Source of the DNA: Sipunculus nudus
Taxonomy: Eukaryota; Annelida; Sipuncula; Golfingiida; Sipunculidae
Direction of reading: 5' to 3'
Assembly: GCA_026874595.1 (NCBI GenBank)
Contig: CM049314.1
Coordinates: 34,763,229 to 34,827,228, forward strand
Length of the DNA stretch: 64,000 bases
Numbering within the stretch: position 1 is the stretch's first letter; every line of letters starts with the position of its first letter. Under the pieces are notes generated by a model that was not told where the DNA came from, made no database searches, and worked only from the letters and a program-made list of their open reading frames with translations. Made by a program: the position numbers and the translations under genes. Below are positions 6,442 through 40,573 of the stretch, piece after piece.

Positions 6442-7435
6442 ACAAGGGACCTATGGGTCACTGTGCTCAGCTGACGTTAACTTTGAAGGTAAAAATCTAA
6501 AATAATATCAAATGGAGATAAAGTGTAAGAGGAAGAGGCAATAAAGGCTATGGTTGGTTTATATGATTGGTTTGTATTGATGAGCAAGAAATTGTTGCAA
6601 AAAATATTCTGTGACCTGACCATGTGTTTCCTAATGTTGAAACTAAAGCATGTGAGCAGTTTGTGAACAAATGATCTGTACTATTACCATGATCATTAGT
6701 TGGTTTTTCTATTAACTGTTGACATTTCAGTAGTTTACACATTTGTTCAATTGAATCTATTTTTTTTGGAATAATATATATTATTAAATATATATGTATT
6801 TTTTTATGAAATGTATACAGTTGAAATATAGCTAATTAACAACATAAAACAGGGCAAACAAAGCCTGATCTCAAATTCTGATGAAAATAATGAACAAATG
6901 TTTGTATTAAATCCTCATTTTTTTATCACATCAATTATTTTCTAGTTTAAGTTTATATTTCTATACATTTCCAATTTAACATATATATCTGAATATAAAA
7001 GTTGATTCATAATTCTCAATTGCATCATCATAAATCTTAATCTTGTCAGATAACACCACATCATGCATACAAATGTTTATTAATTTTTCACCACAAATTT
7101 ATATCTTTTAAATCTGCAAAACAATAAATATCTAAAAATAATACTTGATTTAGATTTCACAATTTTTAATTGTGTCTTTATTTATCCATAATGTGCTTCA
7201 TATTTTATAATAATTTAAGCATACTGATGGGTTCAATTATATTTGTTAAAATCATTTAAAAGAAAATTGATTTCTTTAAAAATGCTACATTACACAACAT
7301 TGCATCTTCTGGATTACACCTTGAATTATTTTTTCAAGGAAAGTCTTTGCATATTGGAGTGGAAACAGCATTACAATTAAGGAGATACAGTAAAAACAAT
7401 AACAATTACTGCATAACACTTGGTGGGTTGGGTTT

Positions 7436-7447
7436 GGGGGGGGGGGG
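7436..7447. repeat. Poly-G run inside element A
   Basis: Twelve uninterrupted Gs on the plus strand (poly-C on the element's own strand). Matching C-runs sit at the equivalent place in copy C (about 62824-62838). Confidence 0.9.
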
Positions 7448-9586
7448 TTTGGTTGGGATGGTGATATGAGAATAACTGTACACCTGTCACAGCAGGGGAT
7501 CTCCCCCAGTGACTGTAACAAATCAGAAACCCTGGCATAGCTGACTTCCAGTGACCTGGAGTGGGACCCTGCATCTGTAATCAAAGCAAGTGACTACACA
7601 AACCATTTGAAAAGCTAAGAGAAAATGGCCCAGCTTAAATGAACCTCTGTAAATTATAGAATAATGGACATGAGCTAAAGCATATGGACTGTGTAATAAA
7701 TGAAACCTTTGGCCTGAAACCATTTAGTGATGCACCAAGGGAAAAAATGGGCCTATGGTAAGTGTCATATAAAAGTTCCATTTTATAAACAAATAATGTG
7801 TGAAGGTAATTAAGTTTTCAAAAGTTAAATATATGGCTATATGAGTTAAAAATTAATCCCAAAAAGTTTGACCAATATTCCTAATTTTAAAACTAGGTTT
7901 AACAGTGTTATTCACACCCAGGCCCCGCCTACTTTAAGAGATATGAATGAAATGCTACCAAGTATTTATATCTTCTTAAATCTTGTCAGTTAGCACTTAC
8001 ATTGGGTCCTAATATTTTACCATATTTGAATATTAGGATTAAATTCCTGAAAATTTTTTTCTTTAAAAAAATCAAAATTGTCCAAGTCTCAACAAAAAGA
8101 ATTTTTTTAACATAAAAATTATAAGCTTTGTCTTGTATATTAGTCCTGAGTATCGAAGCGGTGGGTCAGGGAGGGGTCTCTGTTGTTACTGTTCATCGCT
8201 GAAAAAATGTGAAATTATAAGATTCATTTTTTTAGAGTACACATCTGTCAACAGAATGGGGTGGGGGTGGGGGGGGGGGGGGAGAGAAAGGCTCCCTGTG
8301 GTATTATGCTGGCAGCCTGGTCAAGCTCAACAAGAGAGAGGGCTTGCCTGAGTGATGGGATTACATAATAGCCTGGGGAGCATTGAGAGTTGCACTGAAT
8401 GACCTACAGTGACCTCAGTGGACTGCTTGACAATGTGAGGGAATACAACCAGAGCCTCCAAACACATTAAATAACTAGCCTAATTTTGCAGCTTTTATTT
8501 TCAAATTCAGATTTTAACAGATTAAATCCTTATGTGTACATGCTGTGAAAATAACATCCACAGTACTTACAGGAAAAAATTGTGCCGTGGCCAAAGTTGG
8601 GCAAAATCTAAGGTACTGATTTTATATTTATGCTAATAACTTAAAAAAAATTCATTTTTCAGATCTAATTTTCAGTATACAATTGAATCTTGATTAAATG
8701 ATGTTATATTCCTGATAAAACGTCTCAGCCATTCTTATTTTAAGTGAGTAAATATATATCCTGATTTTTTACAAGGTGCATTATGTAACTTCAACAAATT
8801 ATGCAATACTGACCGAAATTTTGGTATGTACATAGGAAATGTATGGAAGAATATGAATATTTACAATTACATCTAACATTATGCCAATTTTTGGATTACC
8901 AGGTAAACAAAAGTAGGGTCATGATGCTAGAAAATACAAATACATTAAGGCTTCTAAAAAACTTCAATAGCTAGACTAATTTTTAAGCTTATACTTTCAA
9001 ATTCAAAGTTCATCAGATTAAATCCACATGTAAACTGGCTGTGAAAATTAAATCAAATGTACTTATAAGAAAAAAATGTGACATGGTCAAATTTAGGCAA
9101 AATTTAAGGTACCAATTTTTTATTTTTGCTAATATTTTAAATTTAACAGATTTTGATCTAATTTTGGGTATACAATTTAATTTTGATTAATTAAAGATAT
9201 ATTACTGGAAAAAAGTCCAAAGCTTTAAAATGTTTTGTTTTAAGTGATCAAATATCTTTCCTGATTTTTTACAAAATGCATTATGTTTGGGTCCATAACT
9301 TTTTTAAATTATATAATACAGACCTAATTTCTGGCATATACATAGGAACTATATAGAGAAATATTTATGGTAAATATGAGGAAAAACAGATGAGCGGTTT
9401 CAATAAAAGCCAGTCCTGAAGTGTGAAAATAGGTTTTTAATAAAAAATTGAGGTTTTTCCTAAATTTCTCAAAGGAATGAAGTCGCAAAGACCCAGTTTT
9501 CGGCTTGGTAGGAGATCTTGGGGACATCTAACATTATGCCGAATTTTGGATTCCTAGGTCTTACGGTTTCAAAACGTGCCACATCT

Positions 9587-9645
9587 ACGGACGGACGGAC
9601 GGATGGACGGACGGACGGACGGACAGACGGACGGACGACGGACAA
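9587..9645. repeat. (GGAC)n microsatellite of element A
   Basis: About 14 units of ACGG/GGAC with one T and one A interruption, directly next to the 5' hairpin. Read on the minus strand as GTCC repeats. It gives rise to the repeated Arg-Pro-Ser-Val peptides seen in open frames here, which are not evidence of coding. Confidence 0.95.
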
Positions 9646-9658
9646 TGGACCACGACTA

Positions 9659-9689
9659 TAGCTCAGATGACTTATAGTCAGCTGAGCTA
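9659..9689 (-). repeat. 5' terminal hairpin of element A
   Basis: A 31-nt near-perfect palindrome: 8-bp arms TAGCTCAG/CTGAGCTA, one mismatch, a 5-bp inner stem TGACT/AGTCA, and a 3-nt loop. The identical structure is at 61247-61277. Confidence 0.92.
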
Positions 9690-10191
9690 AAAATCCAGTG
9701 ATGAATATGAGTAAATCTGCCAATAATGTGTTTCCAAAAGTGACCTCAAAATCCAAAATCCAAAGTTCTAACCACTTGGCTATATCCTTCCCTGAAACCT
9801 GGCAACAATAATAACTATTGCAGTTTGTGTATATAAGGTAACATAGAGGAAGAAAGATGAATATATATACCAATTAATGTCAGCCTTGAATTTTTTATTC
9901 CAAAGCATTCACTGAGTACTTTAATCGCCCCAAAATTCAATGACACCCAGTAAGCTAATAATGTAAAATCCACTTCATCTTAAATATGGAGGCTCCGGTT
10001 TAGTAAGTATTTTTAGTTAACTATGTCTTATATTACTAAATGTGCATGAAATTTGGTAAAACATGCATTTATTTTATCCGTGTCACATGTCATGTCTGTT
10101 TATCTGAAGAATAAATTCTCTGAATATGTAATTAGTAGCTCAACACATGTTAATGAGTGATAATTTGGATGTCTACTGTCTGCAATATTAA
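9690..10191. other. AT-rich non-coding sequence
   Basis: Nothing recognised on either strand. The long minus-strand open frame crossing 9469-9873 is produced by the microsatellite and element A. Confidence 0.5.
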
Positions 10192-10915
10192 GAGGTAACT
10201 GTTCCCTTCTTGGGACAGATGTTTCTTGAGCTGTATATTGTAAGCAGGGTAAAGTTTCTGCTCAAACAAGTGACCTATGAACCACGGTGCTCAGCAAACA
10301 AGCATTGTGACCTCTAACACTCTTTATGCATGACAGTAGAACAATGTAAATGCCCACTTATCTGATGGGGTGGCATCTGTATTATAAGTGACACAAATGC
10401 TAATCCTTTGGAACAGATGTTCTTGGCTATAGAGTATTGCTAGAAATGTAAATTCCCTCCAAGCTTAAATAATTAAGTGACCCATGAGCAATGACACGAT
10501 CTGGCCAACATTGTAGCCAGTAACACTTTGTATTACATCAAACAGTGTCAATACCCAATAATGTTGTAAGGTAGCTTTTGTGTCATAAATGAGGTAACTG
10601 CATGGAAGTCCTTTTTGAGAGACATTGTAGGCCTTTCCCATTAGAGAGAATTCATTCCCTGTTCAAACTGTTTATCCATAGGCAATGACACTCAGCTGAC
10701 AATGGTATGACTGATTACATGACACGTACTGCTAGAGTGTTAATGCAAAATTATCAGTTCTAGTAGCATTTGCATTATAAATGAGACAATTGCTGGCGCT
10801 TGGGGAAAGATGTTCCTGAACTGCATATTATCAGGAGAGTGAATTTTCTGCTAAAACAATTCACCCATAAGCCAATTGAGACACTCAGCAGACAAATACT
10901 GACCTCTTATACTTA
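10192..10915. repeat. Four diverged tandem copies of a ~197-bp unit
   Basis: Units begin near 10192, 10390, 10588 and 10783. They share a GTAACTG-like start, GGGACAGATGTTC, a TATATTGTAAG-like stretch, AATTTTCTGCTCAAACAA, a run like GTGACCCATGAGCCAATGACAC, and a CAGTGTCAATGCCCA-like tail. Copies differ by many substitutions, so this is an old array. No open frame is conserved across units. Confidence 0.75.
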
Positions 10916-11737
10916 AGTATAAAATCAATAGAGAACTTACACTTGAGTGAAGGAAAACAGATTGAGTCAATAAACAACAAAGTCCTCTCTCAGTGATCAC
11001 ATATTACATTTGTTCAACTCACAGTCATCAACTGCTTGCAGTTACTGCATATTCCCTTTATAAACCTGCCTTTTTGAAGCCATACCATGACTTTTTCTAA
11101 CCCTGCCAAAAATTCCCTCAGAAGAAGGAATTCTTGAAAAACCCTGTTTGCAGCCCATGCATCCAGGATTCCACCACCTGAGAAAAGGGTTCACTGTATA
11201 TCACCACAAAGGTGCTGGCACAGAGCCAAAAATATTCTAACCAATGAGATCAAAGCTTTGGCAGTTTCAAACTAAAGTCTCAGTTTAAAAATTTATTCCA
11301 AACAGAGATCAAGTGGACAGTTTTAAAACAATTGTAACAATACTGCCGCATGAGGACTTTACAATGAAATATACAGCTAATATTGTGAAAAAAAGTATAA
11401 TTTGTTATAGACAAAAAGGGAGAATAGTCATGAAATACTCATCACATTGGCACAGCATGAATAATATTTCGATGATAAAAAAAATATATCTTAGATTAAT
11501 GTATCTATTTATAAATTAATTCTCCGCTAAAATGATTGAGGCTGAATACATCGGAGGGTTAACAAATTATTTTCATATAACAGTCATCATGCTATTTGTT
11601 CTAAACCCCAAAAGTTTGAAAAAAAACTTTGAAAAAGTATGAAAAATAATAAAGGTGTTTTTTTGCTGAATTTTATTTAAGTATGAAGAGGCAACCCTGG
11701 ATTTCCATGAGGGGAAGACTTTTCACATGTTCTTCAG
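10916..11737. other. AT-rich non-coding sequence
   Basis: No gene recognised. Segment 11040-11240 is somewhat richer in G+C but has stops in all frames. The 68-codon frame at 11313-11519 has no recognisable features. Confidence 0.5.
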
Positions 11738-12041
11738 TTAGGTACATGTAAGATGCATGGTGGTGGGTACTTTGGCTGTGTATCATGCTTTTACCTTTCA
11801 CAACTAAGCATTAAGATCCTCTCTGTATCATGTTGTACAGTATAAATGTCACCTCTACTAGTGGCCATTAAGCACTGGTTCTTAAGTAAGGTACATATGT
11901 AAGATGCATGGTGGTGGGTACTTAGGCTGCGTATAATTCTTTCACCTTTCACGACTCAGTATCAAGATCCTGTATATAACACATTGTATAGTACAAAATG
12001 CCACCACTATTAGTGGCCATTAAGCACTGGTTCTGAAGGAG
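11738..12041. repeat. Tandem duplication of a ~150-bp segment
   Basis: The copy at 11738-11886 is repeated at 11887-12041. Shared landmarks are GTAAGATGCATGGTGGTGGG, TCACCTTTCAC-like text and AGTGGCCATTAAGCACTGG. Identity is roughly 85-90 percent by eye. No coding signal. Confidence 0.85.
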
Positions 12042-12211
12042 GTAAAGTCACGTATCTCTTCAGTTACAGCTATCTAAAAAACATATCTAGTCATGCCATG
12101 TCTGTCTGCATGTATGAAAGAATAACATTTTATTTAGGTGACTGCCTCCAGTATGTACATCTCAGAATTCCAATCCAATTTCAGACTCTGTTACAGGGCA
12201 GTAGCTCATTT

Positions 12212-12570
12212 TATATCCTGGAAATAACCAGGCCCAGGGACTGTTGCACCTGTTGTCCCAGGGTTTTTTATCATATTTATGAAGAACCCCCCAGGTATGT
12301 TAATCCTAACAGGAATAAATGTATGTAAAGTGATTATGACATGATTCAATGCATATAATGACAGCTAAATAAATAATAAATTTATTAGTATTATCATTAA
12401 GGTGAACTTTTGAGGGTGAAACACAGCCGTTGGGCACCACCTTCCCATTAAGACTGCAGAGTGCACACATTGGGTGGGGACCAACTGTGGAAAACCTTAC
12501 CTTATTGGCTAAGATTTGAACTCACCATCTCCATGCTAGAAAGAATTACATTGTCTGAAGCCTGCTGTCA
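12212..12570 (-). repeat. tRNA-derived SINE-like repeat, copy 1
   Basis: Read on the minus strand, the head (about 12570-12510) contains a B-box-like GAGTTCAAATCTTA (complement of 12513-12523). The body carries a stretch whose plus-strand form is TTCCCATTAAGACTGCAGAG and, further on, CCAGGCCCAGGGACTG. The same order of blocks is found at 29680-29945 and 60462-60718. This copy has about 100 bp of extra AT-rich sequence in the middle (12300-12405). Confidence 0.65.
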
Positions 12571-12660
12571 GAGATTAATAATAACAGTGATATGTGTATT
12601 AGCACTGTGACAATACTTTAGCTTTTTGAACTGATACAATGCAAAGAAAAATATTTAACT

Positions 12661-13093
12661 AGCATCTCATGATGTCATATATTGTATCTGATGTCATTTA
12701 TTGTATTAGCATCTCATGATGTCATATATTGTATGAGCGTCATCTGATGTCATATATATTGTATCAGCATCATCTGATGTCATATATTGTATCAGCATCT
12801 CATGTCATATATTGTATGAGCATCATCTGATGTCATATATATTGTATCAACATCATCTGATGTCATATATTGTATCAGCGTCATCTCATGATGTCATATA
12901 TTGTATCAGCATCATCTGATGTCATATATTGTATCATTGTCATCTGATGTCATATATTGTTTCAGCGTCATATGATGTCATATATTGTATCAGAGTCATC
13001 TGATGTCATATATTGTATCAGCGTCACCCGAAGTCATACATTGTATCAGCGTCATGTGATGTCATATACTGTATCAGCATCATCTGATGTCAT
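12661..13093. repeat. 28-bp AT-rich minisatellite
   Basis: About 15 copies of a 28-bp unit, typical form ATCTGATGTCATATATTGTA plus TCAGCGTC, with length variants of 24-30 bp. The open frame over 12957-13172 is a by-product. Confidence 0.95.
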
Positions 13094-13189
13094 GGAATCG
13101 ATAAATCCAGAATATTTGATTATCATATCAGACACCACACAAAATTTTCCTAGAATTAAAACAAAATTATAAATGATCCACATATATAC
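13094..13189. other. Short AT-rich spacer
   Basis: Nothing recognised. Confidence 0.4.
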
Positions 13190-13454
13190 CTATTAGCTGT
13201 GATCCAATTAATAAATTATATAGATGATTAGTCTTTTTCTTTCACAATGGATTAAACTGGAGGCAATTATGAGTATTACATGCAAAGAAATCATTAACTA
13301 GAAAGAACTATTCTAATCCAGTCAGAGAAGTAAGAAATAAGGGACACAAAGTAACAAACAGCATAAAAACTTAACCTTGTGTAGTCGTCAACAACTTGGC
13401 CTGACCTTGACCTTTAAGCCTGTGTACAAGTCAGACATAAGGCCAAATGGAATA
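13190..13454. repeat. Dispersed repeat R3, copy 1 (left half of a split R3-R4 repeat)
   Basis: Aligns by eye with 32873-33160 and 34120-34400. Shared landmarks are a CAATAAAT-like start, TTTCACAATGGATTAAA, CATGCAAAGAAATCAT, and GTCAACAACTTGGCC / GTCACCAACCTGGCC. Here it stops at the MITE terminus at 13455, and the rest of the repeat resumes at about 16490. Confidence 0.6.
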
Positions 13455-13661
13455 AAAGGTATGGTTCTCAGGAAACACCTGAGTCAATTTTAACCCCCCA
13501 CATCAAAATTTTTTATTTTGATTTTCATCTTTCAAGAAGATAAAATTATCAATTTTGATATGTTTTCCTTTGTTATGTAGTGCTTTTGCCTGTTTAGAAA
13601 AAAAATTATGTTATTATCATGCTTTTCCCAAATCATGTGACATTTTTATCTAAACATACAA
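13455..13661 (-). mobile_element. MITE (M family) left part, interrupted by element B
   Basis: Starts with the terminal repeat AAAGGTATGGTTCTCAGG and follows the reverse complement of the intact copy at 49498-49727. Shared landmarks are TTTGATTTTCATCTTTCAAG, TTTCCTTTGTTATGTAGTGC, GACATTTTTAT and AAACATACAA. It carries about 45 bp of extra sequence after 13592. Homology stops at 13661, where element B begins, and the other terminus is at 16429-16450. Confidence 0.75.
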
Positions 13662-14500
13662 ACAAGGGACCCATGGGTCACAGCGCTCAGCTGATCATGA
13701 CTTGACTATAAATGTATCACCATTCTGATACTATATTGAGTAGATAAAGCTTAGAATATCAGGTCATGTTGGGCTTTTATAAAGGAATATGTAATATGTG
13801 AGTAAATGATATATGAAATAACCTGACTGATGGATTAATATGGAGTAAAATATAGTGGTTAATTTTTTATTTATTTGGGAGGGGTCAAAAAAAGCAATTT
13901 ATCTGAGCAAATATGAATGCAATGACAGTATACTAAGCAGTGGTATAATGATGATAAGGCTATTTGTTGAAGGATCTATAATGTATGGAAAACTGCAAGA
14001 TTTCAATTTGACAGATACAAGGTTATGATTAACTATGCTGATGAGGGGATTTATGAATTTGTGACTGTATCACATGATATCTTGACAAGATCGGTCTTGA
14101 CAAGGTACATTATTTTGATGCCCCTCATGTCTACATATTACACAATATTGACATAATTTTTGGCATGTACATAGGTACCTATGGACAAATGGTCAACATT
14201 ACTGAACCACCTGGAAGGTTAACATCTTAAAAATATGATGAAATGTAGATAAAGTTTGAGAGGAAGAGGTAATCTGGGCCATGGTTGGTTTATATGATTG
14301 AAGAAAATGTTGCAAATAATATTGAGATCTGACCATGCCTTTCCATTGGTAACCTTTTTGATAAGCTGTTGACAGTTCAACAGTTTACACATTTGTCTGA
14401 TGAGATCCAATTTATTTGGTAAACCTTTTTTATCAATTTTATGATATGTATACAGTTGCCATTATGTCCCCACTCCACAGGTGCAATAACTTGATTTGGG

Positions 14501-14512
14501 GGGGGGGGGGGT
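14501..14512. repeat. Poly-G run inside element B
   Basis: About 12 Gs followed by TGTTATGATCAGAGTTACAA. A similar C-run with GTTGTAACTCCCATCATTCC lies at about 63630-63670 in copy C. Confidence 0.85.
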
Positions 14513-15018
14513 GTTATGATCAGAGTTACAATGCCTCTGTCTCTCTGTAGATATTTTCTTTAATTATTAAATTTTATGCTATAGCCATAGAACTATTGTT
14601 CACAGTGCCAAGGAGCAAAGCCTCAGTGGGATGAAGAAGGGTATGGTGAGAGTTACAACACCCTTGCATATACATACAGGATATGAAATTTAATTCAACA
14701 GTGCTTATAAAGAAAAGTTTATTCATGAACATTAAAAATTTAAAACAGGCAGAAAGATGGAGAAACAAAGCAAACCATTTTCTCTATTCTACTGAGCCAA
14801 GAAAAAATTAACAATATTTGCATTTATTCCTTTTTTCATTACATAATTTTAATCCAAGTTTTTGAATGTAACTATAAATTTACAGTATAACATACATGTG
14901 ATTGTGAATATTTCAGTTGATTCACATTTCTAAATTGCATCAACATTTATAGGTAATGTATCTAGTTTATAGTACTTGTCAACAGAATGGGATGGAAGGA
15001 GGAAGGGAGACAATTAGG

Positions 15019-15093
15019 GTGAGAGAGACAGAGAGAGAGAGAGAGAAAGAGAGAAAGAAAGAGAAAGATGGAGAAAGAAAGAGAAAAGGGAGA

Positions 15094-15145
<52 letters not shown>

Positions 15146-15187
15146 CTAGACTGCCAGAGAGAGAAAGAAAGAGAGAAAGAGAGGCTC
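15019..15187. repeat. (GA)n polypurine tract inside element B
   Basis: Nearly unbroken purines on the plus strand, mostly GAGA with AAAG variants and one short break at about 15145-15155. Copy A has a G-run at the matching place (about 8263-8290), flanked by the same GTCAACAGAATGGG and AGGCTC sequences. The Glu/Arg/Lys-rich and Ser/Leu-rich peptides in open frames here are by-products. Confidence 0.95.
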
Positions 15188-16428
15188 TCTGGTAATTACT
15201 GCCTGACCCAGCCTGGCCCAGACACTCACAGTGGCAGTAGGTCAGACCTGAAAGTGTTATGTAACTGCCCAGTACAATGCATTTATACTGATCTGATGTA
15301 AACAATGAAGTCATGGTACCTGGAAACTTGAATGAAATCTACAGTTTTTGATCAATTGGTTTCAAATTTCAGATTTTAACAGATGAAATGTTAATGTGTA
15401 CATGCTGTGAAAATTAAATCCACAGCACTAACAGGAAAAATTTGAATATTTATATTTTTTTAAATGGTATCAGGAAAAAAGAAAAGTATTCTCAAATATA
15501 AAACTAATACATGTGTTAAAATTAATCCAAGGATCAAAACACCCTATATATTATACCAGGAGCAAACTGGAGTTGGGAATGTTTAATCTTATGAACTGAA
15601 ATAAAGGACCAGCAATATAAATTTTGATTATTTAGTCAGTATCATGTAACAACTGATACAACCATGAGTTATAAGTCAAACAAATTAAAATCTTTAATGA
15701 GCAATATTTTAAATTTTTGACATATTTATTTATTATTTTAATTTTGTAATAAATATAAACTAACAAGTTAAACACCTGGAAAAGACCTGGAAATTTAGAT
15801 TAATTTAATATAATCAACTGCATCCTTGTCTATCATTATCTTCATTATCTTCATATATTCCCTAATAGTAAACAACAATTTATTTTAATTATTTGTTTTT
15901 CATTTTTAGTGTTGAAATGAAAAATACCCAATGGTGACTGCATGGTGTCATTTGAAATACAATTTTGGCTATCCATGGAAGATCCATAAATGATCAGTAA
16001 TTGCAAGGTAATTCCCTGTAACTCAATTTAAGGTACCAATTTTATAGTTTTACCAATATTTTACATAATTTAACAGATTTTGACCTAATTTTTGGTATAC
16101 AATTAAATTTTGATTATTTAAAGTAGTATTACTGAAAAAAAGTCCCTACCTTTAACACTTTTGGTGTTAAGTGACCAAATATCTTTCCTGATTTTTTTAC
16201 AAAGTCCATAATGTTTGGCCCATAACTTTTTTAAATTAAATAATACTGACTTAATTTCTGGCATGTACATAGGAACTATATAGAGGTATATTTATGGTAA
16301 AAAATGAAGAAAACCAGATGAGTGGTTTTGATATTAGGCAGTCCTGAAGTGTGACAAAAATTTCTAATAAAAAGTTGAGGTTTTTCCTTAATATCTTGAA
16401 GGAACAAAGTCCTATTGACCCAATTTTC

Positions 16429-16450
16429 GTGCATGAGAACCATACCTTTT
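16429..16450 (-). mobile_element. Right terminus of the interrupted MITE (M family)
   Basis: GTGCATGAGAACCATACC followed by a T-run. It is the inverted match of the terminus at 13455 and corresponds to the other end of the intact element at 49498-49727. Confidence 0.65.
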
Positions 16451-16489
16451 TTTTTTGGCCTAATTTATTTGGTCAATTTTTTCTATCAA

Positions 16490-16640
16490 GCGAATTTCAA
16501 AATAACACAGAAGGTAAATAAAATGATCAATTAATAACCAATCATTGGCCGTCTTTTTTCTTTTCAAACACTGAACACGATTTTACAACCAATTCAGATG
16601 ACTAGTACCTATGCATTTGTTAGTAAAGTTAACATTAAGT
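16490..16640. repeat. Dispersed repeat R4 (right half of the split R3-R4 repeat)
   Basis: Aligns by eye with 33225-33370. Shared landmarks are AGAAGGTA, AATTAATAACCAATCATTGG and AAAACCGATTCC-like text. At 32873-33370 the R3 and R4 halves are adjacent. Here they are about 3 kb apart with the MITE and element B between them. Confidence 0.5.
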
Positions 16641-16921
16641 GTCTTCCACTGGCTAATATATGTATAGCCAACACACTTTAAGAGAATCAGTCTAAGCTTG
16701 GACAAAAATTGCATGATATAAAAAAGTCCCTTTGCAAACAGATCAAGTACCCAATCTGACAATAAAGCTGTCTGTTTGAAGTTGTCTCAAAAACCGGCCA
16801 CTCTTTGAATCGCAGTTGAATATCAAATAAGGCTTATATCACGATCATCAGTTTTCCAAAGAACTGTACAAAAAGGTTAGGTCACATGACAGGTTAGAGA
16901 AGATCTACCAACAGAAGCCCA
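16641..16921. other. Non-coding sequence
   Basis: No gene or repeat relationship recognised. Confidence 0.35.
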
Positions 16922-16937
16922 TGGGGGGGGGGGGGGG
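16922..16937. repeat. Poly-G run
   Basis: About 15 consecutive Gs, similar in context to the G-runs of the dispersed elements. Confidence 0.85.
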
Positions 16938-17019
16938 TCTTTTTCAAGGTAAGCAAAACTTAGTCATTATAGAAATTACAAGAGCAACGAAAGGGTGCAT
17001 AATATGCCTGTTGTATGTC

Positions 17020-17460
17020 TTGTGACATCTGACCTCATTAAATATGCTTGAATTTGCTGAGAATTTAAATCAGGGGAGAAAATCTATTGGTTAATATTTA
17101 AAATGATTTTCATGAAAGTTAATAAAATTTTTGGTACATCATAACAATGACATAGAAGGCTGGTGACCTTTGACCTCATTAAATATGCATGGATATTGCT
17201 GGGAATAGAGCTTAGGTGAGATATCATTTTGAAAATTGTTGTTGTTTTATCAAAATCTATAAAATTCCTTGGAAATTATTGCTACAACACCACAAAGTAG
17301 CTTGATGACCTCTGACCTGACGAAATATGTATGGTTTCTGCCTACAATGGAAATAATGGTGATTGAGATAATAGATTGGTTAGAAGTTATGGTAAGTTTC
17401 ATAAAAATCTGTCAAACCAGTTGTAATGACATTATCACCATGACACTAATAGTTAATTTT
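17020..17460. repeat. Three diverged tandem copies of a ~139-bp unit
   Basis: Copies begin near 17022, 17160 and 17301. Each carries a TGACCTCTGACCTCATTAAA-like landmark, a TATGCATGGATATTGCTGGG-like segment and a TTCATAAAAATCTATAAAA-like tail. No conserved open frame. Confidence 0.65.
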
Positions 17461-17639: not shown

Positions 17640-18060
17640 TATCTTTACTCATTTGTGGAAAGCTCAATGAAATTTTTTTAAGTCATTGCACTGAAAGCTT
17701 CAAAAAGTTATATTTATAACTGATGAACCATGGACATGTCAGATATCCAAGATCTTTAGTCAAGTTGATTTTTGGATCAATCCATGCAAGATTTCTTGAG
17801 ATATTTAAGTATTTTGTGCAATTTTCCTGTTATTTAAGGTCAAGGTCACTCTACTAGTACAGGTCATGACCCCATTTTACAAAGGATTAGTCCTCTTACC
17901 CATATCTATGTACATGTCAAGTTTGGTAAAGATCTGTAAAACAATTTTTGAGTTATCCGTCCAAATGAAATCTCAGCAGCGGTGGTGGTGGCGCAACCAT
18001 GCTAAAACCATAATATCCCGACTTTGTCTGGGGATACAATTATGTCTCTTACCTATTAAA
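17640..18060. repeat. Probable old dispersed repeat remnant
   Basis: The text AAGTTTGGTAAAGATCTGTA then TTTTTGAGTTATCCGTCC, followed by a GGTGGTGGTGG run and GGGGATACAA, resembles motifs I associate with abundant mollusc dispersed repeats. There is no second copy in this window to confirm it. Confidence 0.35.
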
Positions 18061-29679: not shown

Positions 29680-29945
29680 GTATCCTGGTGTCACCCAGGC
29701 CCGGTGTGTAATACACCTGTTGGTCATGGGTCTGTAATCAACTACTGGATGTGTATTAATTCAGAGGAACTTCCCAAAGATGCACTTTTTGTGAGTGATA
29801 CACGGCTTTGGGGCATAGCCTTCCCATTAAGACTGTAAAGTGCTCAGTGCTCACTGTCAGTGGATGCCGACTGTGAAAAATCTCACTGATTTGAACCCAT
29901 ATCCCCTGGCTTTCAGTTCTATGTTTTGTCCCTAGATTAAAGAAA
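29680..29945 (-). repeat. tRNA-derived SINE-like repeat, copy 2
   Basis: On the minus strand the head includes GGGTTCAAATC (complement of 29889-29899), a near-perfect RNA polymerase III B box. An A-box-like TCTAGGGACAAAACA lies about 40 nt before it. Body blocks match copies 1 and 3, with plus-strand forms GGCTTTGGGGCATAGCCTTC, CCCATTAAGACTGTAAAG and CACCCAGGCCCGGTGTG. No pol III terminator or 3' tail was assigned with confidence. Confidence 0.7.
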
Positions 29946-30020
29946 CTGGTCTGCCTGTACATGCAGGGGCATTTTGCTCACTTTTGAGATGTGGGCTTGA
30001 TTGTTCATCCTTGGTGAGGA

Positions 30021-30023
<3 letters not shown>

Positions 30024-30075
<52 letters not shown>
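30024..30075. repeat. (CT)n microsatellite
   Basis: About 26 uninterrupted CT dinucleotides. The Glu-Arg repeat peptide on the minus strand is a by-product. Confidence 0.97.
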
Positions 30076-30078
<3 letters not shown>

Positions 30079-30739
30079 TCTTCTTAATGTCACAGACAAT
30101 AAATCAGTGTGTTCAAAGACCAAGGTTAATGTCTTTTTACATTAAGATTTATTTGGTTTAATTAAACACAAGTTACAAGTGAATCATTTCCTAACTGATA
30201 AGTGTGTGTTCAACACATCCCGTTGAAATAATGGTTGCTCCCACAGAGGGCCTGGGAAGAACCCATTAGTAGATAAATAGGGGTGTCAGGTTTTAATGCC
30301 ATGTAATCAAAGGGTAATTTCCCTCAATTAATCAAATCTAGACATGACATGAACCTTTCTTGAGTGTTCTTTAGTGTCAGTGTGCTTGTTAGATTAAATA
30401 ATGGGAGATAATTCAGCAATCAATTTATTATAAAAACTGAAATTACAGAAGATTGAAAAAAAACCACTTTAGTTGTCATTTGCTTAGAACTAAAGCCAGA
30501 ACATGTGTCAAGTATTTCTTATGTTGGCTGGTTGTCAGGTTTTCCGGTGTCTGGCTTTCAGATAAAGAGAACTATAAGAACTAAACAGTATATATCTTAC
30601 TTATTGTTGAAATTAAAATGTAAGATAAGTGATACATATATCTGGGATCAAATTAACTAGATATCAGATATGTTATTAATATACATATTGTCAGTGGATT
30701 TCCACATATATCAAGACAATTTGCGATAATACATCACAA
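30076..30739. other. Non-coding sequence
   Basis: Nothing recognised on either strand. Confidence 0.4.
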
Positions 30740-31400
30740 AACAGCTGAGCAAATAGCATCTCTTTACAAAACACCATATGGTGTAAAGTCTGTAGAACAA
30801 TTAAAATATTGTATATCATATAATATTGTCAGGATAAATAACACAGCATAATGGCATTTGAAAATTAAAATACCACAGAACTTATTGTACAAATTACACA
30901 TCATTATGTCGATTGAGAAAATATAAAAAACAAACTGTCCACAATCATAAGGTTAGTGTACAAAATGTCACAGGACACTTTGTTCATGGGCAAAAAACAC
31001 TTAGCATAATGTCCATTGGGGATGTATGACAAAATATATTGTCCACAAAATACCCTGAATATAAGATCATTTTACAAAATATCACAGAACATATTGTCCA
31101 TGGACAAATACTACTTAATATACCGTTAATTGAGATAATATGACTTAAGGTACTCTCACCAAAATAGCACTGAACATAAGGTTATTTTATAAAATACTAC
31201 AAAAGATATTTTCCAGAACGAACACAAAAGGACAAGGTTCTTTGAAAAAAAAATACTATAGAACATAATGTCAAGGAAGACAAAATGAAACAGAACATAA
31301 TGTTCGTGGACAAAATATCACAGGACTGTCCATTGATAAAATACAACAGAATTAACATAATTAGCCAGACATATTACCAGAGAACATCATGTTTTTAGAT
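30740..31400. repeat. Very decayed tandem repeat (ACAAAATATCACAGAACATAATG-type unit)
   Basis: Recurrent phrases such as ACAAAATATCACAGAACATA, TTGTCCATGGACAAA and AACATAATGTCCA appear at irregular spacing of about 30 or 60 bp. The copies are too diverged to count precisely. Confidence 0.55.
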
Positions 31401-32872
31401 GAAATAAAATCTGTGATTCAGAAAGAACAGTAAATTTCTTATGAATTCATGAACATTTGTAAATTATGACTAATTAGAATTTTAGATAATTATATAATAC
31501 CAGGTTACAATAGAAATCTTTTTGACCGAGGAATTTAATAAGTACCTGATACCAGGATTGAAAAATTAAATGTACACTAATTAAGTAAAAATATAACTGT
31601 TTTTCCCTGCATTAAAACAGAACTGTTATAAGTGCAATTACTTCAAGTAGTGTAGAACATACAGTATGATTATATAGAAGTGGTAGCAGCTAGACTCTCT
31701 TGTTTACATATGTACTTGAGACCTCTTGAAGCTGAGAGCTGAGGTGTACTCTATTAAATCTCCACTTGTCTGATCAGATCATGTTTAAAGATGATGCTAA
31801 AGAGTCTGATTAGTGATGTTTAGTTTGTAATCAATTGCCTTACAATACTGACAGCTGGTCAAGGACTGACCAGGTGTCTTCATTCCATGCTTGACCAGCA
31901 TCAGGACACTGACTGTTACAGTCAGAAGGGTCAGTCAGTGTGATCATAAGTCACCAGCCATGATTTCCTAAGGTAGATCATGTACTAGGAAAAAAACCCT
32001 CATTCAAAATCAACCAAAAAGTTGTTTAAAAGTAATATTAGACCCTTTAATTGTATATTATGTTTAATCTGGTGCTGATTGTATTCATATTTTTTAACTT
32101 TCATTCATTTTCATATGATATTTTAACATTTATTTTTTTTTCAACCTAAATTTGACTACTGAAATTTGTTGAAAATTTTCAAATCTAAAGAATCTTTTTG
32201 CTTTCTTGTATAAAACAGTTTCTCTCCTCCTTTTCCAGTTTATGGAGGTTATGTGTATTATTTTTCCTCTTCATATATTTTTCTTTTTTTTTTCTTTGTG
32301 GCAAGCAGCCTATCAGCCCGGCAACAGAAACAGCGAAGGATACCAAATACACAATTGGCTTGTGTTTTGAGGCATGGAGCTGATATTGTGTCCAGTCAGC
32401 TGTATTGCACATGGTACAGACTTCACCTCCATGATATTTAAGAGTTTGTGTTGATCTGAGCTCTTTCCATACCTTGCCTGAGCCATATTGAATCTCTAAG
32501 AGTACACTGGTAGCTCTATTTACAACCATTCAGATCTTCTAAGAGTGCAGTCTGTTTAAAAAGCTAATCTCAGGGGTTAAATGTACCTATTGAATATATT
32601 TATTATAATGAATTAAAAAAAAAATTGTATCATTATATGTATCTGGGCTAAGTGTGCATTGAATATGCCACAAAACAAGACATATCCACAAAAAAGCTTG
32701 CGGACCAATGTTTTTATAAAAAAAGTGGTTACAAAATGTAAAGGATGACAAAATGTTCACAAAAGAAAAGGATGACAAAATGTTCACAAAAGAAAAAAAG
32801 AGAAGTGCTCTGTACTTCATCATTTCTTGCATTTACTCTTAGTTGGTCATGTATTCATAGTAGAACAACCAT
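31401..32872. other. AT-rich non-coding sequence
   Basis: 31820-31980 is richer in G+C and contains irregular GACTGACCAG/TGACCAGCATCAGG-like repetition. 32740-32800 holds a doubled AAGGATGACAAAATGTTCAC. The overlapping 60-114-codon frames at 32185-32529 lie on both strands over a T-rich stretch and look like chance. Confidence 0.45.
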
Positions 32873-33370
32873 AGTTTATATTAGTGATGTGTCAATAAAT
32901 AGATTAGATTGTATCAAAGATTGTCCATTTTCTTTCACAATGAATTAAATCAGTTGCATTTATGCATAATCGGTCACAAACGATCCAAAGAAATCATATT
33001 ATCCAGATAAAATATTATAATTCTGTCAGAGAGATAACAAAGCACAAAATAGCACATATATTGCATTTAAACTGAAAGTTGTGCTGTGAATAAATGTCAC
33101 CAACCTGGCCATTAACTTGACTTTTCCTCACGATGTAGAAGTCAGACTTAATTAACTGCCTTGGTACATCATTATTATAGTTATAAATCTATACAGTAGA
33201 TTTCATGTTGATAATATAGAAGGTATATTAATAATTGATTAATAATCAATCATTGGTCTATCTACTGTCAGGTTTTGAATATTATTTTAAAACCGATTCC
33301 TACAACTATTATATATCATGTGAAGGGATATGAATCTAGTCATCTGCAGTGAAACATAACATGGCTAATC
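32873..33370. repeat. Dispersed repeat R3-R4, contiguous copy
   Basis: The R3 half (32873-33160) matches 13190-13454 and 34120-34400. The R4 half (33225-33370) matches 16490-16640 through AGAAGGTATATTAATA and AATAATCAATCATTGG. This copy shows the two halves belong together. Confidence 0.55.
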
Positions 33371-34119
33371 ACTTGTCATACATTATCACTTATAATATGT
33401 ATCTTGTACATATCTACAGGTGTGATTCTTACTTAACCAGCAGGTTCAATTCCAAGACAGAACAATCTGAAGAAAGCAAATTTCAGTAGTTCCTGGTCCA
33501 ATTACCAGTTAGACTAATATGTCATTGAGGTTTTGAAATAACTCAGTCTGATATGCATACAAATTGTTGCAGTCTTATCCAGACAAATTTAGTTTTATGT
33601 CTACTGGTGAGACAATCTGATAGTAGCAAACTAGAATGATACAAAGAAAAAGCAAGGTCACAGTAGATAGTGTAAGTGGTATAAATCCAGACAATTAATC
33701 AACGTGATGTTCTGAGCACATGGACACAAAAGAAGATCTAAAGACCTTAGGCCAGTCAGTAATGAAAGAGTAGAATCACTTGGCTAAACAGAAAAACACT
33801 AGAAAGGATTATTTATCATTATCATAATCAAACAGAATGCATTACCAGTATCTATCTAAAATTCCAGCATGCTATCCATTATACTAGGGCGTAAGAAGAT
33901 CAAAAGGTGAAACGTGTTTTATGAAGGGATCCCTTTAATGACAGACATTTCATGTAGCAATACACAGAAGTCACTTGGCCAAGAATGCAGAGGATTGAGG
34001 CAGAAAGTCAATATGAGTATTATAAAACTATTTGCTTCTGGAACTTATTTTTGCCTATATCAAATACAATGTAAATGGTTTAATATAGATGGGTGTCATG
34101 TTGTGCTCTCTAAATTACT
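33371..34119. other. AT-rich non-coding sequence
   Basis: Nothing recognised. The 74-codon frame at 33914-34138 runs into the R3 repeat and has no features. Confidence 0.4.
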
Positions 34120-34400
34120 AATAGTGGTGTACCAATAAATCAATTATATTGCAATGATTGGTCATTTTCATTCACAATTCATTAAATTGGTTGCTTTTGT
34201 GCAAGATCTGTCTTAAACGATTATGTTTATTCACATGCAAAGAAGTCATATTATTCAGATAAAATATTCTAACTCTGTCATAGATATAAAACTAGATTGG
34301 GTACAACACAGGGAAATTAACAGCATTAATTAAAACTTCACCTTATGCAACGAAAAAGTGTCATCAACCTTCCTATTACTGTGATTTTTCAGCATGATGT
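34120..34400. repeat. Dispersed repeat R3, copy 3
   Basis: Matches 32873-33160. Landmarks are CAATAAATCAATTATATTG, TTTTCATTCACAATTCATTA, CATGCAAAGAAGTCATATTA, TCAGATAAAATATTCTAA and GTCATCAACCT. Confidence 0.55.
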
Positions 34401-37400
34401 ACATTTAAGTTATATCCTGTAATTTAAAATTATATCCTGTAATTTCTTGTCATTGTGTACTGTTCTTTGATATTTTACTGATGGGCATTCTGTTCCAATT
34501 GTGCTATTTTGAAAATTAAAATTAAAGACATCAGGTTTTAGGGTATATATCCTGTGGACAATATGTCCTATACCTGGTTTTAGGACAATGTCCTTCTCTA
34601 TTCTGTCTTCAGAGAGAATTCAGCCTTAATTTTTGTATAGAGAAGTGGTATGGCATTATATCTGTGGACAATATACAGGAATACCAGCTGTCCTGGAAAA
34701 CAAGGGAAACCTGGAATATGAATATCTTTTTTGCCAGTAAGAGGAAAGTCCAAAAATTTTTGAAAATGCTTCAGATCAGAAAAAATTCAGGGAATTAGAA
34801 TAGGTCTGGTCAAAGAAAAGTGATAATTTTAAAACATTGTCTCATGTCCAAACAACACATCTTATAGTTGATTTCTAGTGTATTACTCCTCCCAAAAATG
34901 TAAAAAATTATTAATCTGGAATTTAAAAAAAAACAGCAGGGGGAAAAAACAACAACTTTTGTTTTCATGAAATGATGGGAATTGGGAACCTTGATATATT
35001 ATAGGGTATCATTTATGTGGAGAATATTTTCTATGATATTTTTCAAGTTTTACACAGTAATGTAAATAATTCAGCATTTCGTTTGCTGACAGTTGTTCCA
35101 GATAAAAGCTCCCATGAAATTTGCATACTCTCAGGTGTCAGAAAAAAACTAACTGGTCCCTGAGTAATGTGTCATTGTGGAAGCTCTAGCTCAGCACTGC
35201 AGTGACTGATCGTCACCTTGACCAGGTGCTGGTGGCGCTGGCGACCATGAGGGTCTGGCTGTGGCATCCCTGTCAGCTCAGGCTGTTCAGCAGTGAAAAG
35301 CCACTACAACAGATTGTCGGGTACTGAATATTGGCAATTAATTTTTTGCAAGCTCATGCTAGAATCCCTACAGAAATCTTGTTAGTCATTGTGTGAGCTG
35401 TCTGCAGCATATGAAATGTCTGGATGGAAGAACAAATTGAAACGAAGCCAAACTTGATACAAACTTGCAGAGACAGGCGTGTTTCACTAATGTTCAGGAT
35501 TCTTGTGACCCGAGTGTGACAGGCTTCTTCTTCCTGGAGAATTAACGGCTGTTTGTCTGATATCTTAGTTCATCCTGTTAAAAAGTGAAAGTATTTTGAT
35601 GTCTGTAAACTGAGATCATTATGTGCTCTTTGACAGCTATAGGTAGAAATATTGATTTCAATTTACTGCAGAAACAATAAAAAACCTATAAATTACAATT
35701 AAACAATGGACCCTTTTCATACCAAATAAGTGTTTGTTCATTTTACTTATGATTTTGGAATACTGGTATTTAAAGAATATATCTCAGCACTGTTTCATCT
35801 TCTCTGTTTTCTCAAAATACATTTTGGTATCCTCTTGTAGACTAATGTTTTAGATGATATATGATAGAAGAATATGAACCAAATGATGGACTTATCAGAA
35901 TGTCTCAATACCATTTTCCTTCTTCTTCTTTTTAAATAATTTAACACCAAAATGCAGTCAGATGATTATTATCTAACAACTCTGTAAAAAAAGAATCAGT
36001 TTACTTTAAAATCTATATAAATAGGATACCAGTGTGTTTATATTCACCATTATTTCTCTTACTGGTACATATATTATTTAATTTTTTACTTTATTTATCT
36101 CATGTTTGGCAGTGTGCATTTCTGTATTAAATTAATGGCTGAAATGTGTAAGTCTTTGCATGAATTAACTCATGCTGATCAAGGTTCATGCTCTTTATAC
36201 TCAAGTGTTTTGTATGCACCATATATTTGTAAAATGCAACAAAGTCAAGACAGTTTTGCCAAATGTTTTGTAGCTGGCTACCTAGCTGTATATGTGATCC
36301 TGTTAAATATACTACTTAGGGAAAAAATACAGGACACTAGACAGGTACCTAATTTGTCACAGTGTTCTATGTTGTTAATGAGGTGCTGCGAAAGGAGTTG
36401 CATCATACGCACGATACATTAATTTATATTCCTTGACATATGGTGTTAGAACCCATCAATATAGTGAGTGACTGGCAGCATTTAGGCAGAGCAATATATG
36501 CTATGTCTTTCTCCTGTCACATAACTACTGAAGTGAAGCAGCATTTTCAATAGGCAGGGGCTATCAATCAGACAGGCTTCATGGTGAGATAAAGTTTTCC
36601 TGAGGTTTGTGTCGTTTCATATTATTGATAAGAGTTAACGACAAATGGACCATTAATTGATACATGGTTGCCACACTAGGATTCTGTACATGTATCTTTG
36701 AGCCCCATCTATAGGTATATGATATGAAATTTATGGCACATTTTATTTTATTGTTTGTTTCCCCTAACTAATAAAAGCTGCTCCCCGCCCCCCCCCCCCC
36801 CTTTGATAAATTACTTAACTGAAAATAATACCCTGAAGGTCTTAATATATACATAGCCCATGGCTTTCAGGAATTTATGCACAGATAAGTGTCTCTGATG
36901 CTGAAAGTATCTTACAGATGCCTGGTTCTGGGTATCCAAGCGTTCAGTTGGATGCATGAATTTCTGACTGTAGGACCGAGAGCACCAAAGCTGTATGGCT
37001 TGCATGGCAGCCACACCATTGCAATCTAACTCAGACCATTTGCATATAAGCACTGCACTTTCAACTGACCCATACAATTCAATATAATCAGATGACATAT
37101 TATGACATCATATATATTAAATCATAAAATGATACAATAATGATGTGAAATATGTGTACTAAAAATTTTAGTCTTATACAACCCTTCAAAATTTGAAACA
37201 AGTCTCCTTTAGTTGACATATGCTACAAATCTAAATTCTTTCCGACCCTCTGAACCTCCTGCACATCTCCATTTTTTTTGCTGTTGGAAGTCCTGTAGGC
37301 TTAAATGTCTTAATCTCATTCAGTGTAAATAATTTTTATATTGATGATGATCATTCATTAAATTTTTTATGATAATCTGTATCAGAATTTTACACAGTGA

Positions 37401-37481
37401 AACTGAGATATATCTGCTAAATGACTTCATTATCTATAAACAGTTTAACTGCAATTCATGATTTAACATGTAATTAAAGGT
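34401..37481. other. AT-rich non-coding sequence with one G+C-rich patch
   Basis: At 34398-34442 TTATATCCTGTAATTT occurs twice in tandem. A conspicuous G+C-rich patch at 35185-35300 holds CACCTTGACCAGGTGCTGGTGGCG-type text. A plus frame there is open for about 45 codons and ends at a TGA near 35327, but without a start or splice support I do not call an exon. A poly-C run lies at 36787-36802. The 106-codon frame at 36102-36422 has no recognisable features. Confidence 0.4.
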
Positions 37482-37813
37482 GTGTAATGTTTATGGCGCT
37501 GAAATTGTAACAGCGAGATAGCAGGTTCATTTTCCAATATGACCTCTCTCTGCACTAAGACTCCTATATAAAGTCTGTACCACAAGGGTGCACTCCTATC
37601 TCAGGAGAGAATGAGTACAGGTCACGGGCAGCTTGCATATATGTAGAATGACTGTATCCTTCTAGCACCTATTATGGCTGTTTGGGCCATATGCTTCTCT
37701 GGAAGCTGAGAAAAGGTACAAGTAAGAACAGTCCTCAGAGACCATCAGGAAGGCAAAGTGTATAAAGTCAGATGAGACTGGCATTGTATAAGTGATACCA
37801 GACTGTAAACCCC
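37482..37813. repeat. SINE-like dispersed repeat, second family, copy 1
   Basis: Matches 42950-43208. Shared blocks are CTCCTATATAAAGTCTGTA / CTCCTAGCCAAAGTCTTAT, CACAAGGGTGCACTC / CACAAGGGTACACTC, and AGGAAGGCAAAGTG with GAGACTG. A GCAGGTTCATTTTCC phrase near 37520 is a possible B box. That makes a tRNA-derived origin plausible but unproven. Confidence 0.5.
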
Positions 37814-39272
37814 CCACGTTTTACCCAAAACTGCCCAGAGGTCAATGATATTTGCCATGCAAAAAAATTAATTGTTCTATGGAATATGGGGCCATAGATA
37901 AGAAGTGAGCAGGAAATTTTTTAAGTGTATAATCATTGCATGATCAAAACAAAATTGTGTGTAATAATTCTTTGTAATGATATATAGACGATGCACACAA
38001 ACAAGGTGTAATCCACTCTAAATGGTACCTTTATGAATGAATTAGCAAAAATAGTATATACCTTCCAACCAAAAGAAAGATCAATATAAAAAGGAGCAGA
38101 GAATCTGTAAAACAATACATTTTATAAGGGATTATATTTGAAAGTTCACCTTGACAACCAAACCTGGTGAGGTCTCAGTTGTTATTTGCAATTCTTTAAG
38201 TTACATATACCTGAAATTACTATGGTAAAAAAAAGATAAATATGAATTTTGTGTACTGTTGATTTTTCCTCACCCTGAGGCAGGTTTATCTTATTATAAA
38301 GACTGATGAGAAAAAACATGATTGCTTTGGATTGAAAAAGTGACAACAGCAAATGGTTCTAGTGAGAATCAATTGGATTTAGATAAACTGACGGTTATAC
38401 AGTGTTTGGATGTGGCCCCCAACAGATGTGCATTTCATTTTTTGTGCCCTAATTGTAAACACATTGGTTGATTAGTATTGCAACAAGATAATCACAGGGG
38501 ACATTATTTGGCCTGGAATATTGTCTCAGTTGCTGAAAGTAGTCATCAGCTAATTGTGTCATGTGCCAAGTCAACCTTTTGATTGCTCTGTTAAAAAAAT
38601 ATTCCATGGCCAAATGCCACCTGCGTTCTCTTTTGAATGGTCGAAAGTAATTCAATATCAGAACTAAAAAGCTCTTCAGTGATTGGATGCTATCATCCCA
38701 AACAATTCAGAGGCCATGTCAAGTAATCTAAAATACTTTAACAGTTTCAACGAAGTTTCCTCAAATATTTAAATAGCCTTGTAAAATCTGAAGGTCAACA
38801 TGATCAGTGTGGATTTAACGCACATTTTGCTGGTGGGGGAAAATATTCTATGGAATTAAGAAAGCAAATATTTCTATGCAATTTTAGGCATCTTTCCTGT
38901 CACTACAAAATGAATACAAGTGATACATATGAAGGACTCTAATCTCAATGTAAAACCTAAATTTAATAAACTGATGGAAGAAGCCACCAAATTTTGCTTT
39001 TGGTGTCAAATATACATAAAATGAAATATCTTTGTTGACATTAACAACTATTTTCTTCACACAGAAGATACAGACTACCCAGTCTTGTCCCTGTTTGTGG
39101 CTGTTAGCCAAAATAAGGTGATCAAAGTCTTCAAACTATTAATGTTTTATATCAAAATAGACCTTCTTTAGCCTTAACATCAGAAGAGACTCATTTTAGC
39201 GACTGAAAACTGGGTAAAACATGAAGATATATATATCAGAGCTGATTTTGAAATTTCTGTGGGAATATTTTT
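37814..39272. other. AT-rich non-coding sequence
   Basis: Nothing recognised. Small minus-strand frames here (37933-38115, 38449-38655, 38884-39111) have no supporting features. Confidence 0.4.
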
Positions 39273-39303
39273 TATGCCCCCGCCACAAAGTGGCCGGGGC
39301 ATA
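39273..39303 (+). repeat. 5' terminal hairpin of the pearl-like element
   Basis: Arms 39273-39286 and 39290-39303 pair with one mismatch across a 3-nt loop. Confidence 0.92.
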
Positions 39304-40539
39304 TAGTTTTACCCATGTCCGTCCTTCCGTCCTTCCGTCATTCCGAAATCAAACAGTTGTACAGACTTTTTTTCGCAATGCCTGCAGATATTGGCCTGAT
39401 TTTTGGTGTGTGGGCAGATATAGACCAGTTACAGATCGAGTTCGCGTTTCGTCCCGGTTGACCTACTTTTGACCGTTTTACGTCTCCTAAACTTAGAAAT
39501 TTTCATGAAAAATAGAAATATTCATGACAGATACACATGTACGGACTTTTTTTCACAATGCCTGCAGATATTGGCCTAATTTTTGGTGTGTGGGCAGATA
39601 TAGACCAGTTACAGATCGAGTTCGCGTTTCGTCCCGGTTGACCTACTTTTGACCGTTTTAAGGCTCCTGAACATAGAAAATTTCATGAAAAATATGAAAT
39701 TTCATGACAAATACACATGTACGGACCTTTTTTGGCAATGCCTGCAGATATTGGCCTGATTTTTGGTGTTGGCAGATATTGACCAGTTACAGATGGAGTT
39801 CGCATTTCGTCCCGGTTGACCTACTTTTGACTGTTTTACGGCTCCTGAACATAGAAAATTTCTTGTAAAATATATTTTCATGACAAATACACTTGTACAG
39901 ACTTTTCTTCACAATACCTGCAGATATTGGCCTGATTTTTGGTGTGTGGGCAGATAATGACCAGTTACAGATCAAGTTCACATTTTGTCCCAGTTGACCT
40001 ATTTTTGACCGTTAGACGGTGCTCTAACATAAAAAATTTCATAAAAAGGTGCATATGTATGGACTTTTTTTTGCAGTGCCTGCAGATTCAGGCCTGATTT
40101 TTGGTGTGTAGGCAGATAATGACCAGTTACAGATCGAGTTCTTGTTTTGTCTCAGTTGACCTACTTTTGACCATTTGACTGCTCCTGAACATAGAAAGTT
40201 TCATGAAAAATATAAATTTTCATAACAAATGCATATGTACTGACTTTTTTGTACTGATAATGACAGTTACAGATCGAGTTTGCGTTTCATCCCGGTTGAC
40301 CTACTTTTGATTGTTTTACGGCTCCTAAACATAGAAAATTTCATGAAAGACAAAATGCACATGTATGGACTTTTTTTCACAATGCCTGCATATACTGGCA
40401 TGATTTTTGGTGTGTTGCTTGATAATGACCCGTTACAGATCGAGTTTGCATTTGCCCTTGTTGACCTACTTTTGACCATACGACACCTCCTGAACTTAAA
40501 AAATTTTCCAAAATTTACAAATGTTTCTAATTTGCCCAA

Positions 40540-40573
40540 GGCGGGGGCATTCGTGTCGTTCCGACACATCTAG
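40540..40573 (+). repeat. 3' end of the pearl-like element: inverted motif, hairpin, CTAG
   Basis: GGCGGGGGCAT, a 6-bp-stem hairpin, then ATCTAG. A hairpin followed by CTRR is the known Helitron-type 3' signature, though the 2-nt spacing here is shorter than the canonical form. Confidence 0.75.

Follow-up and report, generated by a model that had tools for sequence, protein, structure and literature searches.

Sense polarity of two HINE families in sampled introns of Sipunculus nudus, and a resident Helentron that carries the 3' terminus of one of them

Why should two repeat families with unrelated bodies be built to the same plan, and what decides the strand on which their copies lie? The question is raised by a window of 64,000 nucleotides of the Sipunculus nudus genome (1.43 Gb; assembly GCA_026874595.1, contig CM049314.1, here C9:34,763,229-34,827,228), which holds three copies of a repeat that we call family 1 (F1) and one pearl-like element. 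A first, sequence-only reading of this window had noted a common structural grammar at the ends of both and had proposed that a single mobilising enzyme recognises structure rather than sequence. Here, both are identified as families of non-autonomous Helentrons (HINEs), and copies of both were found to point mostly with the gene in a sample of introns whose strand is known. For the orientation of Helitrons or Helentrons relative to the gene strand, no report was found in the titles and abstract beginnings of the best-ranked matches, a search that most subscription journals lay outside. The sense polarity common to two families is the interesting result of this analysis, and it is without precedent in the literature searched.

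Introns of known strand were taken from Myosin-head exons and kinase exons, which yielded 19 fetched genomic stretches (numbered L0xx throughout); they come from 16 genes and lie on ten contigs of chromosome size. Only F1 and pearl 3' ends were counted, matched with up to 4 to 5 errors. The 5' ends, microsatellites, bodies aligned by BLAST, and families B, C, D, E, and H were left out of the count, as were three places at which the F1 5' hairpin, being nearly palindromic, matched in reverse (L025:6703, L053:5659, and L054:247). With this procedure, 18 of 20 ends lay in the sense orientation, some of the 18 being diverged. The 12 stretches of myosin introns contributed 7 sense ends and 1 antisense end, and the 7 stretches of kinase introns 11 and 1. 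Six genes gave no 3' end; among the other ten, eight were all sense, two were split, and none was all antisense (two-sided probability of 0.0004 by copy and 0.008 by gene). The two antisense ends are L058:5825, with several mismatches, and L027:7004, a variant with the palindrome GGCCCATGGGCC.

The marks outside the count were compared with it as well. All 11 GTCY microsatellite marks were sense (one each in L021, L023, L024, L025, L032, L054, and L057, and two each in L028 and L053), and true 5' ends matched the orientation of their own elements, the one at L027:3473 being part of an antisense copy. Four intron copies of family C and one of family H were also sense. On these samples, F1 and pearl copies mostly point with the gene.

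A common orientation was also seen between copies on C1, for which the first 100 places per pattern were taken, so that the lists describe the beginning of this contig; for the comparison between families, two F1 variants, with 100 ends apiece, were set against 100 pearl ends. The F1 ends at the first 100 places formed 8 same-strand runs, against a shuffle mean of 31.8, and none of 10,000 shuffles gave as few. Within C1:64,043-1,169,108 (1.1 Mb), 71 of 72 exact F1 3' ends are on the minus strand. The 3' flanks sampled in this block differ, except for 21 bases that match off register in one pair, and thus the copies are separate insertions. The block reflects either many co-oriented genes or a cue other than genes.

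Among the places listed on C1, 66 pairs of a pearl end and an F1 end lay no more than 50 kb apart, and 57 of these pairs agreed in strand (14/15 at 0 to 10 kb, 15/17 at 10 to 25 kb, and 28/34 at 25 to 50 kb). The agreement was 29/41 at 50 to 100 kb, 61/90 at 100 to 200 kb, 99/168 at 200 to 400 kb, and 205/316 at 400 to 800 kb, and reached chance with distance (286/588 at 0.8 to 1.6 Mb). With the first 2.4 Mb left out, pearl ends and the nearest F1 end within 50 kb agreed in 32 of 40 cases. Over C1:0-23.4 Mb, the corresponding agreement was 24 of 31, against a mean of 0.49 for circular shifts, 16 of 2000 of which reached it. Runs tests on the sparse single lists were weak, the observed value being reached by 810 of 10,000 shuffles for pearl and by 335 of 10,000 for the F1 ACAG list. 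Kinase exons on C1 had few F1 marks nearby, and these were mixed; near the exon at C1:17,785,292 (minus strand), one F1 copy at 33 kb pointed against the gene and one at 48 kb pointed with it. In general, F1 and pearl copies in these samples agree locally in strand with each other, over stretches of C1 about the size of genes.

Both elements are HINEs of known architecture, as every structural feature tested fits. In the window, the complete F1 copy (6442-9688, minus strand) has its 5' end at 9688 and its 3' end at 6442, with a T on both sides. From the 5' end, it consists of a subterminal inverted repeat (subTIR) with an inverted repeat that forms a hairpin (9654-9688), a GTCC-type microsatellite (9587-9643), the body, the 3' subTIR TCAGCTGAGC (6465-6474), and the palindrome GACCCATAGGTC with the tail CCTTGT (6442-6459). 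The pearl-like element (39273-40573, plus strand) has a 5' subTIR with its hairpin (39273-39303), central tandem repeats of 180 bases in 5.1 copies (39358-40250, by Tandem Repeats Finder), and the 3' subTIR GGCGGGGGCAT, the palindrome GTGTCGTTCCGACAC, and the tail ATCTAG (40540-40573). The subTIRs are inverted at the two ends, GCTCAGCTGA/TCAGCTGAGC in F1 and ATGCCCCCGCC/GGCGGGGGCAT in the pearl-like element. In both families, the inverted repeat stands beside the 5' subTIR, a microsatellite is present, and the palindrome lies downstream of the 3' subTIR. The hairpins, GTCC-type stretches, inverted motifs, palindromes, and tails quoted in the sequence-only reading are present as placed and far beyond chance (reversed controls, 0).

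Several details of that reading had to be revised. At both 6442 and 13662, F1 lies on the minus strand, which makes these positions 3' ends. The copy at 13662-16437 has the F1 3' palindrome and tail (13662-13679); it is truncated at the 5' side near 16437 and lacks the GTCC stretch and the 5' hairpin. The copy given as starting at 61247 (61248-64000, plus strand) has the 5' hairpin (61248-61282) and the microsatellite (61293-61353), and its 3' end falls beyond the end of the window, which cuts it. Long tandem repeats, proposed for both families, hold for the pearl-like element; in F1, Tandem Repeats Finder gave short-period repeats only and no long tandem array, and BLAST showed divergent repeated blocks. 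The bodies are unrelated, as had been stated, whereas the tails have CT[TA]G followed by T in common.

The ends recur throughout the genome. Exact F1 3' ends number 27,102 (13,604 forward and 13,498 reverse), and pearl 3' ends with at most one mismatch number 3,752 (1,856 and 1,896); the reversed-pattern control gave 0 for each. Among 20 pearl copies fetched for the consensus, 12 had both ends within the stretch, and the consensus ends of the collected pearl and F1 copies coincide with those first proposed. The junctions were set out in 22 rows, 13 for pearl (the 12 fetched copies and that of the window) and 9 for F1, two of which re-use a 3' end. A T directly precedes and follows the element in 22 of 22 rows, which indicates a T^T site without target-site duplication (matches across the site are T only). 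The F1 tail reads [ACT]CT[TA]GT with T after it (19 readable of 20 loci), and the pearl tail reads ATCTAG with T after it in the copy of the window as well as in the 12 fetched ones. Nested insertions, namely a sense F1 inside an antisense F1 (L058:2248-5855) and a Helentron that immediately precedes an F1 3' end (L071:1-1080, element orientation), provide near-empty-site evidence for the T^T junction. As a side observation, F1 subfamilies around 3' ends on C1 (L033-L052) have differing upstream sequence and one common 3' terminus, like end-swapped derivatives.

One grammar over unrelated sequences has already been published for the HINEs of the oyster Crassostrea gigas (PMC7492417; this and the other papers cited were available in part). 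Like the elements here, Cg_HINE has a 5' subTIR with an inverted repeat, a GTCY/GTCC microsatellite, tandem repeats, a 3' subTIR with a palindrome, and a TT target without duplication. The bivalve Pearl elements treated in the same paper have central repeats of about 160 to 180 bases in a HINE frame, as here, and our element is likened to them by description only. The HINE likeness suggested at first is thus borne out by the subTIRs, the inverted repeat, the microsatellite, the 3' palindrome, and the T^T insertion.

The F1 3' terminus was also found on a coding element. Helitron_like_N has 143 matches in the genome, and ten of these Rep loci were read in part, six over at least 8 kb downstream from the Rep domain (three of them extended); of the remaining four, the 1.6 kb in which the 3' end was expected were read. 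Rep and PIF1 helicase domains were present in all four proteins scanned. An endonuclease was detected in all four at an E value of <= 0.001; it was above the curated cut-off in three and below it in L065, the F1 partner copy (21.2 versus 24.5 bits). The L065 locus, on C17, has an open frame of 2,342 amino acids. Loci on C5 (L070) and C10 (L071) are 98.3% and 98.6% identical to it over 1,147 and 1,031 bases up to TCAGCTGAGCATCATGACCCATNGGTCACTTGTT, the F1 terminus, beyond which the flanks of the three loci differ. Thus, the F1 3' terminus is common to F1 and a resident Rep/PIF1 helicase/endonuclease Helentron at three loci, which is new here, and this Helentron is likely the autonomous partner of F1. 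For Cg_HINE, no autonomous partner could be related according to the available text, in contrast to F1, and a Helentron with a HINE terminus bears on the link that the oyster study left unresolved (PMC7492417). Helentrons and their HINEs, including DINE-1, are likewise known to have a Rep/helicase/endonuclease protein, ends common with non-autonomous copies, and a T-rich target, while the subTIR, palindrome, and tail sequences of F1 are its own (PMC4067079, available portion).

Other Rep loci differed in their 3' regions. A fourth member of the C17 family, on C13 (L064), is 93% identical in the coding part; homology is lost just past the stop codon, and no F1 end was found in the 8 kb read. 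The locus at C8:22.66 Mb has an F1-like end with the tail ACTAGT. A locus on C2 groups with L061 and L062 as a second Helentron family, for which reading up to 14 kb revealed no 3' end; in L060, L061, and L062 of this family, diverged tandem repeats of about 330 bases follow right after the Rep open frame. For the Helentron 5' end, a candidate position (base 2297 in the joined C17 locus) was rejected, as homology runs past it.

That Helentrons moved both families is the best explanation of these results. The original proposal of one enzyme serving both through structure alone is improbable. The grammar, the T^T target, and the polarity are alike in the two families, and the common target and polarity fit one kind of machinery. 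However, the F1 partner bears the F1 terminal sequence itself, the CT[TA]G tail occurs in both families, more than one Helentron family exists in the genome, and the partial reading of ten Rep loci revealed no pearl 3' end. The expectation of Rep-helicase elements with the same 3' ends was thus confirmed for F1, at three loci, and not for pearl.

For the orientation itself, the explanation that we favor, with about even confidence, is that Helentron-moved HINEs were transferred onto the non-template strand exposed by transcription. The Rep protein would join the element, as a single strand, to a target whose DNA is single stranded beforehand; transcription would expose the non-template strand in bubbles or R-loops; and with the element strand joined to the sense strand, orientation would track transcription. 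The enzymes of the IS200/IS605 group, with which a comparison suggests itself, are one-tyrosine enzymes. Transfer of this kind is inferred because HUH nucleases cleave single-stranded DNA and the Helitron Helraiser is enriched in expressed genes (PMC4778049), and because the orientation of IS200/IS605 elements follows replication via single-stranded targets (PMC5371812). In IS200/IS605, as proposed here, an HUH enzyme sets an orientation that follows the single-stranded target; the elements differ in being bacterial and in taking their cue from replication rather than transcription (PMC5371812). Helraiser is enriched in promoters, gene bodies, and highly expressed genes and has a single-stranded-target model. 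In contrast to the elements here, it is a canonical Helitron with 5'-TC to A junctions, and no orientation bias is mentioned in the available text (PMC4778049). The corresponding portions of the reports on Cg_HINE (PMC7492417) and on Helentrons and DINE-1 (PMC4067079) do not mention gene-strand orientation or polarity either.

Somewhat more tentatively, animal Helentron transposition may be coupled to germ-line transcription, so that new copies arise in the sense orientation and accumulated copies form a fossil record of the direction of transcription. Helitron and Helentron target choice in animals is poorly understood, and a strong sense bias common to families would link this choice to single-stranded DNA exposed where genes are transcribed. 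If this is true, tens of thousands of dispersed copies become markers of germ-line transcription direction, and Helentrons would provide a transcription counterpart to IS200/IS605 elements following replication. Two other causes of the bias were considered and judged insufficient. In the sense strand of the introns, with HINEs masked, 2182 TTTT and 1924 AAAA were counted, and this T-run supply of 1.13:1 falls well short of 9:1. The two F1 strands have similar totals of poly(A) signals, and the pearl element has none.

The main rival to transcription-guided insertion, which we consider rather unlikely, is that insertion was random in orientation and that selection removed antisense copies in genes, for instance through cryptic splice sites or RNA hairpins. 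Intronic transposons of other kinds are orientation biased through selection, and selection would permit orientation preferences that differ between families, as in family D below. However, pearl copies whose 3' end is exact are presumably young and are already 80 to 93% concordant with F1 within 50 kb, and the distribution of poly(A) signals also speaks against this rival. Of the counts of weak splice donors, the one that differs between strands (5 on the sense strand and 0 on the antisense strand of the pearl element) would disfavor the sense copies. Replication fork direction is an improbable cue. The element would be joined to one strand at the fork, with genes mostly co-directional with it; bacterial HUH elements of the IS200/IS605 group behave in this way (PMC5371812), and the 1.1-Mb block on C1 is long for a single gene. 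On the other hand, the agreement between families decays within about 100 to 200 kb, and intron strand predicts orientation on ten chromosomes, which would need very strict co-orientation of genes and forks. Orientation blocks could in principle also arise if copies duplicate locally, or if similar repeats that form inverted pairs are lost: inverted Alu pairs are depleted (PMC3215922, available portion), and some F1 copies are nested in F1. As main causes, both are already disfavored and very improbable, because F1 and pearl agree despite having no common body sequence and because the flanks sampled in the C1 block differ.

Several results weigh against Helentron-mediated, transcription-guided insertion. 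The 5' end of the Helentron was not found at the loci read, and no pearl partner emerged from the ten loci read in part among the 143 matches. Family D, a short HINE-like family of the same grammar (5' hairpin CCTCCGCCAGGAGG; 3' GGCAGAGGC with the palindrome TGCATTCCTTAGAATGCA; tail GATTT, not CT[TA]G), is antisense to the gene in 5 of 5 intron copies (L021:1881-2200, L022:1091-1440, L024:4592-4693, L031:4231-4510, and L059:3212-3456). At 13 places on C1, it is opposite to the nearest F1 or pearl copy in 3 of 3 cases within 50 kb and in 5 of 7 within 100 kb. Either selection on family D or its membership in a different group of Helentrons may account for this. Family B, with pearl-like central repeats, has 5 sense copies and 1 antisense copy (L023). 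Family E, by our reading, has 3 sense and 2 antisense copies in introns, and on C1 it agrees with F1 or pearl in 3 of 3 cases within 25 kb (8 places in range); because of this agreement, the polarity is not established as Helentron specific. A Pfam scan of 20 intron open reading frames for other transposons gave no transposon domain and thus no clean non-Helentron control.

As for the rest of the window, 20 open reading frames had no match, and 56 more that were aligned gave two matches (E values of 0.006 and 0.0096), neither of them credible. A family C repeat (16961-17430, minus strand) weakly resembles the region that precedes the Rep frame of the C17 Helentron, and a family H repeat (17736-18050, minus strand) has a HINE-like 5' hairpin (ATCCCC...GGGGAT). 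The orientation of the repeats switches within the window, with F1, C, and H on the minus strand up to 18 kb and pearl and F1 on the plus strand from 39 kb; this switch is only a prediction about the gene strand there. Outside the HINEs, tandem arrays occupy positions 1-2342, 45916-47189, and 54030-54808, with units of 44, 48, and 34 bases in 53, 27, and 23 copies, respectively.

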